A stretch of DNA of 64,000 nt from Sulfurimonas sp. (lineage in GTDB: Bacteria; Campylobacterota; Campylobacteria; Campylobacterales; Sulfurimonadaceae). Each line of letters begins with the position of its first letter. Positions within the stretch are counted from its first letter, which is position 1. The stretch covers positions 124,001-188,000 of the forward strand of contig NZ_JBFHGL010000004.1 of the NCBI RefSeq assembly GCF_041583195.1. The letters are read 5' to 3'. Under the pieces are notes generated by a model. The model saw nothing but the letters and a program-made list of their open reading frames with translations. It made no database searches and had not been told where the DNA came from. Shown in pieces: positions 4,041 to 41,597 of this stretch. The translations under genes and the position numbers were made by a program.

Positions 4041-4188
4041 ATTGTAATATTAATAAATTATCTTTTTAATTCTCAAAAATATGTCAATTTGCCAAAAAAA
4101 TCACACATATTATTATATGTTATTAAATATTTTACTTTTATAGATATTTATGATATAAATATGTTCTCATTTAAAAAGGGGATTTACT

Positions 4189-5070
4189 TTGTACAAAAAA
4201 ATATTTTTATTTCTATCACTTATATTTTTACTTACATCTTGTTCATCAACGGAAGAAAAAAAACTTAAAGTATCTGCTTCAACATGGATAGGTTATTCAC
4301 CACTTTATTACGCAAAAGAAAAAGGGTGGTTAAAGCCTTTAAATATAAAACTGTTACACGTTACATCATTAAGTGAAAACATGTATCTTTACGAAGCTGG
4401 GAATGCAGATGCATATGTAGGTACACAGTATGAACACAGCGTACTTTCAAAAAAAGATGCTTCACTTATGCCTATAATCTTGTTTGATCGCTCTTACGGC
4501 GGAGATATAGTTATGAGCAACGTATCAATAGATATTCTAAAAAATACTACAGAAGAGATCGATGCATATTTGGAAATGGACTCTATAAACAATACATTGC
4601 TAAAAGGTTTTATAAAAAAGTACAAACTACAAGATAAAAAAATAAACTATATAAACCGTGATCAGGGATACATATCTTCTATTAATTCTAAAGATCTCCA
4701 AAAGCCTACTATAATCGTTACATACACTCCATACGATCTAAAGCTTAAAAAACAAGGTTTTAAAAACATAGCTTCTACAAAGAGTGACTTAGACCTCTTG
4801 GTGATCGATGCATTGTATACGAAAGAAGAAACGTTGCTTAAGCATAAGGAACAGTTTGTATCGTTAAAAAAGTTAGTCGATAAGGCTATAAATAAACTTG
4901 AGAAAGACCCTTACGAATTTTATAAAACGATAAAGCCGTATATGTTAGAACTAAGCTATAAAGATTTTTCTGAAAGTCTTGGAAATATTAAGTGGATAAA
5001 TAAAAGTCTTACGAAAGAGTTAAAAAACAAAATGAAAGATTCTCATTATCAAATGAGCGGGTTACTGTAA
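4189..5070 (+). CDS. Lipoprotein solute-binding protein, SsuA/NMT1-like
   Basis: A type II signal peptide ends in LLTSC, giving lipidated Cys18, so the protein should be membrane-anchored on the periplasmic side. The next residues (STWIGYSPLYYAKEKGW) are the start of an NMT1/THI5/SsuA-like periplasmic binding fold, the class that binds taurine, nitrate or pyrimidine-like ligands. Start is a TTG at 4189 preceded by AAGGGGA; the only alternatives are much further in. No ABC permease or ATPase is near. Instead a membrane GGDEF-EAL gene begins one base after its stop, which suggests a ligand sensor for c-di-GMP signalling rather than uptake. The ligand is unknown. Confidence 0.8.
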   Translation: MYKKIFLFLSLIFLLTSCSSTEEKKLKVSASTWIGYSPLYYAKEKGWLKPLNIKLLHVTSLSENMYLYEAGNADAYVGTQYEHSVLSKKDASLMPIILFDRSYGGDIVMSNVSIDILKNTTEEIDAYLEMDSINNTLLKGFIKKYKLQDKKINYINRDQGYISSINSKDLQKPTIIVTYTPYDLKLKKQGFKNIASTKSDLDLLVIDALYTKEETLLKHKEQFVSLKKLVDKAINKLEKDPYEFYKTIKPYMLELSYKDFSESLGNIKWINKSLTKELKNKMKDSHYQMSGLL

Positions 5071-5071
5071 T

Positions 5072-7066
5072 ATGCTTTTGACAATACAAAGATTTACACA
5101 AATTACACTGATGTTTGTGCTTTTAATCGTATACTTGATTTTTGCAAACTATTATTTAAAGCAAAAAGAGGAAACATCACTTGTTATATTAAACTCTCTA
5201 AAAAACAATATGTCTGAACTTAGTTATATACTTTCAAAAAATATCTCTCAAGATTCAAATGTAAACTCTTCCCGTGCTATTTTAGACAGATACACGTCAA
5301 ATAACGATTATATAGCTGCTATACTTGTTGTAGAAGGTGATGAGATAGTAGTAACGACAGATCCATCTTATAATAGTATCCCATATGTAACAGATTTGAT
5401 TTCGGATAGTACTTTATCAGCATATGAAAAGATATATTCCCAAAAAGGTATTGAGGGACTTGTTAGGTTTTATGATAATGGCGTGCAACACACGTTAAGA
5501 TTAATATTTATGTTTGATAATGAAGAGATCGATATGCATTTTAATCAAAATAAAATATATTTTTCAATTTATTTTGGTCTATTGCCTATTATATTACTGC
5601 TTGTCTCATGGACAATCATAAAATATATAATTGCAAGGCCTTTGGAAAAATTACGTCAATATGCATATTATCAGAGCGCTGTTCCAAAATCATTTAAAAT
5701 AAAAGAACTCGAAGCTATACGTGCATCGATGGTTCAAACATTTTCAAGGCTTAACAAAGAGCAAAAAGAGTTGTATAGAATGGCTAGAACAGATTCTTTA
5801 AGCGGTTTGGCAAACCGTCACTCTTTGGATGAATATTTAAAAAGACAAATCGCAGACTCAGCGCATGATAAAAAAGAGTTTGCATTTTTATTTTTAGACA
5901 TAGATCACTTTAAAACAGTTAATGATGAACTAGGTCATACAATAGGTGATGAGTTATTAAAATCAGTATCTTCAAAAATCAAAGAGGCTATTCCTGAAAA
6001 TGATTTTGTAGCACGTGTAGGAGGGGATGAATTTGTAGTTATTCTGCATCAATATGACACATTAAGTGAATTGACGAAGATAGTTGAAAATATACAAAAG
6101 TCACTTAGTACACAGTGGGTTATAAAAACTCATCCTGTTAATATAACTTGTAGTGTAGGTATAGCTATATATTCAAAAGACGGAAAAGATGAAGTATCTT
6201 TAATGCAACACGCTAGTATGGCAATGTACGAGGCTAAGAAAAACGGGCGTGCATGTTATCATTATTTTACAGAGGAACTTAATCAAAAAGTTAAAGATAC
6301 AATAACGCTTGATAAGATGATGCGTCAAGCACTTAAGGATAAAGAGTATGAGCTCTATTATCAACCTAAAACAGATGTAAAAACCGGAGAAATTTTAGGT
6401 GTTGAAGCTTTAATTAGATGGATAAGCCCGTCAAAAGGTATGATCCCGCCAAATGTGTTTATTCCACTTGCAGAGGAAAATGGGTTTATTACAGAACTTG
6501 GCGACTGGGTTTTAGAAGAGGGGATTAAACAACAGGCTGCTTGGAAGGAAAAAGGGATAGATATTATAGTATCTATAAATGTCGCTACAAAACAACTGCT
6601 TGATAGGAGTTTTGAATATAAACTTACAAAACTGCTTAAAGATACAAAGGTTGATCCCTCAAAAATTGATATAGAGGTTACGGAATATCTGTTTTTAGAA
6701 GAGAATGACAATAATCTTTATACGTTAAATATGATACGTGAAAACGGACTTACTATCTCACTGGATGATTTTGGTACTGGATATTCATCTCTTTCATATT
6801 TGAAAAAGTTCCCAATCGATAATATAAAAATTGACAAAGTATTTATGGATGATTTTAATACAAAAGAGGGATCGATATTTGTTGAGACTATAGTTAAAAT
6901 GGGTCAAACTTTAAATATGAATATCATTGCAGAGGGTATAGAGCAAAAAGAACAAGTTGAGTATCTTAAAGAGATAGGTTGTAACTGTTACCAAGGATAT
7001 TATTGTTCTAAGCCACTCCCTGTGGAAGAATTTGAAAAATTTTATAAAGAATATAAACCAAGTTAA
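5072..7066 (+). CDS. Membrane diguanylate cyclase/phosphodiesterase (GGDEF-EAL)
   Basis: Makes and/or degrades c-di-GMP. Membrane helices at about 9-28 and 163-187 enclose a periplasmic sensor domain of roughly 130 residues with no recognisable family. The GGDEF domain (about 235-400) has an intact GGDEF at 317-321, but the RxxD inhibitory site reads PEND, so product inhibition is probably lost. The EAL domain (about 415-660) has E445-A-L447, SINVAT, EVTE, DDFGTGYSS, IKIDK and AEGIEQ, all needed for phosphodiesterase activity. Both domains look competent. Adjacent to the solute-binding lipoprotein, which may dock on the periplasmic loop as in the NspS-MbaA pair of Vibrio cholerae. Confidence 0.93.
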   Translation: MLLTIQRFTQITLMFVLLIVYLIFANYYLKQKEETSLVILNSLKNNMSELSYILSKNISQDSNVNSSRAILDRYTSNNDYIAAILVVEGDEIVVTTDPSYNSIPYVTDLISDSTLSAYEKIYSQKGIEGLVRFYDNGVQHTLRLIFMFDNEEIDMHFNQNKIYFSIYFGLLPIILLLVSWTIIKYIIARPLEKLRQYAYYQSAVPKSFKIKELEAIRASMVQTFSRLNKEQKELYRMARTDSLSGLANRHSLDEYLKRQIADSAHDKKEFAFLFLDIDHFKTVNDELGHTIGDELLKSVSSKIKEAIPENDFVARVGGDEFVVILHQYDTLSELTKIVENIQKSLSTQWVIKTHPVNITCSVGIAIYSKDGKDEVSLMQHASMAMYEAKKNGRACYHYFTEELNQKVKDTITLDKMMRQALKDKEYELYYQPKTDVKTGEILGVEALIRWISPSKGMIPPNVFIPLAEENGFITELGDWVLEEGIKQQAAWKEKGIDIIVSINVATKQLLDRSFEYKLTKLLKDTKVDPSKIDIEVTEYLFLEENDNNLYTLNMIRENGLTISLDDFGTGYSSLSYLKKFPIDNIKIDKVFMDDFNTKEGSIFVETIVKMGQTLNMNIIAEGIEQKEQVEYLKEIGCNCYQGYYCSKPLPVEEFEKFYKEYKPS

Positions 7067-40974: not shown

Positions 40975-41049
40975 GCTTCAATTCTTCTTGTACTAAATCT
41001 AATCTAAACACTTAACTTTATTTTTATGTAAATATAACTACAATGATAG

Positions 41050-41133
41050 TTGATGATTGCCAAACTTACTGTGAAGTAAGGACGGAAAGCCATGGGTCTC
41101 AGGTTTTAATGAGATCGCCAGGTTGCTGATAAT
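41050..41133 (+). ncRNA. Cyclic-di-GMP-I (GEMM) riboswitch
   Basis: Two-hairpin RNA with the GEMM-I layout. Hairpin 1 is GCCAAAC followed by the stem CTTACT/AGTAAG closed by a GTGA tetraloop (GNRA class), then GGACGGAAAGCC, matching consensus GGACGCAAAGCC with one change. Hairpin 2 opens with GGGTCTCA, pairs with TGAGA, and returns with GCCAGGTTGCTGA, close to the consensus tetraloop-receptor strand GCCAGGTTGCCGA. The outer P1 helix could not be confirmed by eye. It lies about 75 bases upstream of the 41208 gene. Binding c-di-GMP is known for this class; activity here is inferred. Confidence 0.88.
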
Positions 41134-41207: not shown

Positions 41208-41597
41208 ATGAAAAGTATTTTGTTTATTCTACTCGTTGCTTTAATTTCTCTAGAGGCCAATACACACTACATGGCCCATGAAAATGAGTCTGTACAAGTC
41301 CCAAAAAATGGATTAGGGTATTCGTACGAAGTCAATAAGCATTTTGAACCGTTTGTTTATCTAAACAATAAACTTCAAGATATGAAGATGAATTTTAAAG
41401 ATTTCGATCTTTCAAATATCGGTATAGATATTGGAGTTTCAGGAGATTTAAGTAACTCTTTTAGCTATTTTTTTAAATACTCTTCTACAGAGAAGATGTA
41501 TTACAAATTAAAGGATTATTACGAGCACTATAGTACTCTTAAACAAGACACTATGGAAAACTCAAAGATATACCTTGGTTTAAATATTAGATTTTAA
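41208..41597 (+). CDS. Small exported protein, possible outer membrane, under c-di-GMP riboswitch
   Basis: A signal peptide (about 1-18, ending SLEA-N) leads a mature protein of about 110 residues. The C-terminus ends in ENSKIYLGLNIRF, a beta-strand with a terminal phenylalanine, the usual outer membrane assembly signal. Middle strands (SNIGIDIGVSGDLSNSFSYFFKY) also alternate. It is too short for a full monomeric barrel, so it may be a surface or oligomeric barrel component. AAAGGA precedes the ATG. The riboswitch upstream predicts control by c-di-GMP. No family recognised. Confidence 0.65.
   Translation: MKSILFILLVALISLEANTHYMAHENESVQVPKNGLGYSYEVNKHFEPFVYLNNKLQDMKMNFKDFDLSNIGIDIGVSGDLSNSFSYFFKYSSTEKMYYKLKDYYEHYSTLKQDTMENSKIYLGLNIRF

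Follow-up and report, generated by a model that had tools for sequence, protein, structure and literature searches.

Results

A solute-binding lipoprotein gene lies directly ahead of a GGDEF-EAL gene

Within the window (the whole 64,000-nucleotide stretch of DNA analysed here), a gene for a predicted solute-binding lipoprotein is followed, 1 base past its stop codon, by a gene for a two-helix membrane protein with a periplasmic loop, a GGDEF domain and an EAL domain (Table 1). The initial annotation had read the arrangement in the same way, and Pfam and hydropathy analyses bear it out.

Table 1. Features of the lipoprotein-receptor gene pair, in window coordinates
Feature	Position	Strand	Basis
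Ribosome-binding site of lipoprotein gene, AAGGGGA	4176..4182	+	Six bases before TTG start; direct sequence reading
NMT1/SsuA-class solute-binding lipoprotein, 293 aa, TTG start	4189..5070, stop included	+	Pfam NMT1; AF2; fold search; core signalling-linked SBP family
Lipobox Cys18 (LLTSC)	4240..4242	+	Sequence; LPAM_1 E 0.006
Two-TM GGDEF-EAL receptor, 664 aa	5072..7066, stop included	+	Pfam; conserved partner of SBP family
Periplasmic sensor/putative docking loop, ~residues 28-168, possibly PAS/Cache-like	5153..5575	+	AF2 pLDDT 89; WalK match; loop homology across outputs
Second TM helix, ~residues 170-188	5579..5635	+	Hydropathy; AF2 helix 150-200
GGDEF domain (diguanylate cyclase), GGDEF at residues 317-321	5786..6250	+	Pfam PF00990, 157.7 bits; motif invariant in partners
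EAL domain (c-di-GMP phosphodiesterase), EALIR 445-449, DDFGTG 565-570	6317..7015	+	Pfam PF00563, 231.5 bits; catalytic set invariant

The lipoprotein narrowly exceeds the Pfam cut-off for NMT1 (PF09084; 21.2 versus 20.5 bits), and its LPAM_1 match in the Pfam search is weak (E 0.006). Its assignment to the SsuA/NMT1 class of solute-binding proteins (SBPs) is confirmed despite the low Pfam score, because fold matches provide independent evidence: an AF2 model built from 40 relatives (pLDDT 92.9) retrieved TauA (TM up to 0.72), SsuA, Thi5 and ThiY, with TM of approximately 0.6-0.7 overall and 10-16% identity. Sequence matches to PDB chains (ankyrin, myosin and others) were spurious, and the class was taken from the fold search instead. 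Neither Pfam nor the fold search yielded a match to PotD-type families.

In the receptor, hydropathy places two hydrophobic segments on either side of a loop of about 140 residues, and the stretch between them matches no credible Pfam family. The GGDEF motif and the EAL-site residues E, N, E, DD, K, E and Q are present in all 44 GGDEF-EAL partners examined (see below), and, judged by these residues, both domains of the receptor are predicted to be catalytically competent. The arginine of the inhibitory site is missing from the window's copy.

The gene pair is conserved across relatives and across outputs

The host genome (2.38 Mb, 99.9% complete) encodes 62 GGDEF domains, or about one gene in 40, along with approximately 25 EAL matches. 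Within Campylobacterota, the closest named relative of the gene comes from a metagenome-assembled genome (MAG) of Sulfurimonas, and the host most probably belongs to this phylum, close to Sulfurimonas. With so many GGDEF domains in one genome, a lone SBP/GGDEF adjacency may be accidental, and conservation across relatives was therefore used as the test. The search for SBP relatives covered named genome contigs as well as 200 genomes from the same family as the window, 298 from the same phylum and 63 from the order to which a Thiomicrorhabdus relative belongs. For about 110 of the SBP relatives, a wider stretch of surrounding DNA was retrieved. A core family stood out on the family model at 257 bits or more (257-427), with everything else scoring at most 122. 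Although the profile was trained on signalling-linked members, this circularity is unlikely to affect the pairing result, because the score gap is wide and, in a tree with ABC-linked NMT1 proteins as the outgroup, the core SBPs group together as a single, long-stemmed clade (SH-aLRT 99).

All 80 core SBPs with readable downstream DNA, that of the window included, have a membrane signalling gene directly 3' on the same strand, mostly with a 4-base overlap or a gap of 0-1 base; MAGs are among the genomes counted, and some of the partner genes are split or truncated. The partners comprise 52 GGDEF-EAL proteins, 19 EAL proteins with a degenerate GGDEF domain, 6 hybrid histidine kinases and 3 PAS-GGDEF proteins. 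The adjacency of SBP and receptor is thus far beyond chance across relatives, and it survives swaps of the output among GGDEF-EAL, degenerate-GGDEF-EAL, GGDEF-only and hybrid histidine kinase, which extends the initial annotation, where only a GGDEF-EAL partner had been considered. For most of the more distant NMT1 relatives (58-122 bits), which come largely from the Thiomicrorhabdus order, the next gene likewise encodes a GGDEF or GGDEF-EAL protein, in some cases with a Phosphonate-bd domain of its own. The pairing is common to Campylobacterota and Gammaproteobacteria of the Thiomicrorhabdus/Hydrogenovibrio type.

The reciprocal search, with a profile of the N-terminal 239 residues of the receptor run over the 200 genomes, gave the same picture. 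An SBP gene lies immediately upstream of 42 of the 44 strong matches (at least 150 bits); one of the other two sits at a contig edge, and the remaining one (L209) has no SBP, so that the receptor can exist alone. Weaker relatives of the sensor were found in other contexts, including PAS-GGDEF genes behind amt-glnK-amt-tonB without an SBP. GGDEF receptors with a related sensor domain and no SBP were seen at L210, L213 (PAS-GGDEF), L214, L215, L217 and L219, and the genes ahead of the L213 receptor encode Amt, P-II, Amt and TonB. Given the position of these SBP-less receptors, the sensor domain could also serve other partners or inputs.

Several apparent exceptions were cleared up on inspection. 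An antisense ORF had masked the 850-aa EAL partner at L222 and the SBP at L187 and L188, and what looked like SBP-receptor fusions in L037 and L136 are genes that abut in frame with a stop codon between them.

Some loci bring further genes alongside the pair. At L071, L072 and L035 (genus g16 and a MAG), the pair follows three genes, which in L071 encode homologues of FliP, MotB and MotA and indicate a motility context; these upstream genes had been candidates for ABC components, which they are not (Pfam was run on L071). At two loci, an MCP-type chemotaxis gene ends 22 bases before the SBP gene (L108:3004-4272 and L110:3160-4428); its soluble product was rejected as a second docking target, having no TM segment and no similarity to the loop. 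In genus g14, a gene of 406-408 codons for a protein with an HDOD domain and a weak EAL match follows the approximately 820-aa degenerate-GGDEF-EAL receptor (L042:128-1354 (-), L045:741-1961 (-) and similar loci), and possibly represents a third component.

The lipoprotein lacks an importer of its class

NMT1-class SBPs usually serve ABC importers with SsuC/TauC-type permeases. As the initial annotation had pointed out, no ABC permease or ATPase gene lies near the lipoprotein gene. Throughout the genome, five BPD_transp_1 domains were found, belonging to PstC, PstA, ModB and Opp/Nik-type B and C components, and none of these five permeases is of the SsuC/TauC type; the window's SBP therefore has no importer of its class in the host genome. 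The only other NMT1 domain found there sits in an 809-aa NMT1-Phosphonate-bd-TM-GGDEF fusion (L208:2356-4785 (-), contig C8). This fused domain is canonical and falls outside the core family, and both NMT1 domains of the genome are thus tied to GGDEF proteins.

These data bear on the view that the lipoprotein is an ordinary importer subunit whose permease and ATPase are encoded elsewhere, its position beside the receptor gene serving co-regulation only or a dual role in transport and signalling. The usual function of the class speaks for this view, as does the presence of a BPD permease gene next to three distant relatives (L124, L125 and L127). However, no NMT1 protein beside an ABC permease scored above 54 bits with the family model, ABC genes adjoin none of the 80 core SBPs, and the permeases of this almost complete genome are restricted to phosphate, molybdate and Opp/Nik types. 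Relatives placed beside ABC genes rather than the GGDEF-EAL gene, the case that would have counted against a signalling pair, were sought and are absent from the core. We consider the importer explanation very unlikely.

A homologous sensor loop accompanies most outputs

In the model of the receptor's sensor region, a long N-terminal helix is followed by another helix and a mixed sheet. Among relevant PDB structures, the extracellular domain of WalK matches it best (E 0.004), followed by KinD (0.09) and other Cache domains (E >0.1); the structure of LuxQ, whose periplasmic domain is of the PAS type, gave an insignificant match (E 0.85). The modelled loop may thus have a PAS/Cache-like fold.

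Pairwise hhalign comparisons of loops stripped of TM segments, in which size-matched loops of other SBP-linked receptors stayed below 4% and serve as the safeguard for values that are not database-calibrated, linked the GGDEF-EAL partners to the main degenerate-GGDEF-EAL group (97.2%) and to the GGDEF-only partners (93.6 and 89.9%), and more weakly to two outlying EAL groups (73 and 62%). By this measure, nearly all c-di-GMP partners of the SBP have a homologous periplasmic loop. The periplasmic domain is conserved together with the SBP across most of the output swaps, a point beyond the scope of the initial annotation. The histidine-kinase partners carry an unrelated dCache loop instead, and the L115 loop does not match those of the GGDEF-EAL partners; any docking can therefore not be identical in all pairs. 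A mirror-tree comparison of SBP and loop gave no specific co-evolution signal (partial r 0.31).

Pocket-type residues are retained

Eleven residues are identical in all 78 core SBPs compared (W33, G35, P38, Y41, T79, S102, D106, E129, Y179, P181 and D207), and Q159 is kept in 76 of the 78. These residues are kept whatever the output type and with either kind of anchor, and several of them lie at strand ends in the AF2 model, which is where SBPs bind ligands; we call them pocket-type on the basis of conservation and strand-end position. Their conservation suggests a retained and probably common ligand, and their nature points to a solute that is small, polar and perhaps cationic rather than to a sulfonate. 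As to the anchor, SBPs paired with the approximately 820-aa EAL receptors (L042, L044-L053, L075 and L077) have lost the lipobox and kept an N-terminal hydrophobic anchor.

The same residues weigh on a second alternative, namely that the lipoprotein is a ligand-independent protein regulator, such as an inhibitor or a sensor of envelope stress, whose SBP cleft stands empty. YfiR, the protein regulator of YfiN, provides the model; the WalK-like fold of the loop would fit, WalK being under the control of partner proteins, and the pairing is as strict as that of a dedicated regulator. Nevertheless, a dead pocket would not be expected to keep its cleft-type W, Y, T, S, D, E, Q, Y and D residues unchanged in 76-78 of 78 deeply diverged members, and we regard this alternative as very unlikely.

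Discussion

The two genes likely encode one signalling device, in which a transporter-free SBP binds a ligand, docks on the receptor loop and shifts the balance between synthesis and breakdown of c-di-GMP; of this scheme, we infer the docking, the ligand control and the direction. It builds on what the sequences show, namely the gene pairing, the missing importer, the conserved pocket-type residues, the conserved sensor domain and the intact catalytic residues. The lipoprotein, tethered in the periplasm and no longer serving a transporter, would bind a small ligand in the cleft between its lobes and dock on the receptor encoded by the next gene, at its putatively PAS/Cache-like periplasmic domain. 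This docking, dependent on the ligand, would then move the second TM helix and the conserved helical linker, and this movement would shift synthesis by the GGDEF domain against breakdown by the EAL domain. More tentatively, and with some doubt, the dedicated NMT1-class SBP and the unnamed periplasmic docking domain might form a plug-in sensor cassette for one conserved ligand, coupled to cyclase/phosphodiesterase, phosphodiesterase, cyclase or histidine kinase and passed between Campylobacterota and Gammaproteobacteria, possibly reading a solute or shared chemical signal of their habitats.

Control of c-di-GMP enzymes by a periplasmic-binding-protein fold is seen in RmcA and other c-di-GMP proteins with such domains, but these carry the binding domain within the receptor chain itself, whereas here it is a separate lipoprotein. 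The ScrABC system of Vibrio parahaemolyticus includes ScrA, which makes the signal. ScrB-ScrC is like the present pair in joining an SBP to a bifunctional GGDEF-EAL receptor, and has been cited as SBP-controlled (PMC9602780); unlike there, no conserved synthase-like third gene was seen with the present pairs. Docking of an SBP on the periplasmic sensor domain of a receptor, predicted for our pair, is the principle of LuxP-LuxQ, TorT-TorS and XylFII-LytS (XylFII-LytS and TorS cited in PMC9602780), although these systems have histidine-kinase outputs and use other SBP families.

The closest parallel, already drawn in the initial annotation and upheld here as an analogy, is NspS-MbaA of Vibrio cholerae and Sinorhizobium meliloti. 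There too, an SBP gene stands right before, and nearly overlaps, a gene for a two-TM GGDEF-EAL protein, with most nspS-mbaA pairs overlapping by 3-16 bases (PMC9993111), and the SBP is used for signalling rather than transport (PMC8967002, PMC9993111), as we predict for the present one. Norspermidine-bound NspS promotes the cyclase activity of MbaA, and its absence, or spermidine, leads to phosphodiesterase activity (PMC8967002). Membership of the pair in this polyamine family itself would account for the gene order, the near-overlap and the receptor architecture, and the conserved acidic and aromatic residues would suit an amine ligand. However, NspS is PotD/PotF-like (PMC9993111) and polyamine-binding, whereas the present SBP is of the NMT1/SsuA/TauA/Thi5 class in both Pfam and fold, a difference that the initial annotation had noted, and its family couples also to EAL-only, GGDEF-only and histidine-kinase outputs. 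We deem such membership extremely improbable; the best reading of the comparison is that the pair would work like NspS-MbaA without homology on the SBP side, its SBP class placing it outside that family. Pairs like this one might explain cases of mbaA without nspS, such as the mbaA homologue reported for the genome of Nautilia profundicola (PMC2628731).

In general, SBPs are known to drive chemoreceptors as well as kinases and c-di-GMP enzymes (PMC9602780), and it is established that SBPs can gate c-di-GMP receptors (PMC8967002, PMC9602780). The PBP clan is prevalent in c-di-GMP proteins; of its 27 families, only SBP_bac_3 had been studied in c-di-GMP networks according to a review (PMC8846402). 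Our literature search, of partial coverage and hence weak as evidence, found no account of NMT1-class SBPs that pair with a GGDEF-EAL protein. So far, SBP-controlled c-di-GMP receptors amount to very few examples. The class described here is widespread, differs in the fold of its binding protein and has a putative docking domain without a name, and it occurs in bacteria for which the control of biofilm and motility decisions is little known. Since the pocket-type residues are invariant across differing outputs, the identification of a single ligand could reveal the signal of dozens of receptors. The natural output swaps also offer a ready-made experiment, with one periplasmic sensor driving different enzymes.

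Elsewhere in the window, this genome offers a possible effector of c-di-GMP: a c-di-GMP-I riboswitch aptamer (RF01051, 60.4 bits; 41049-41130, +) upstream of a small secreted-protein-like ORF (41208-41597).
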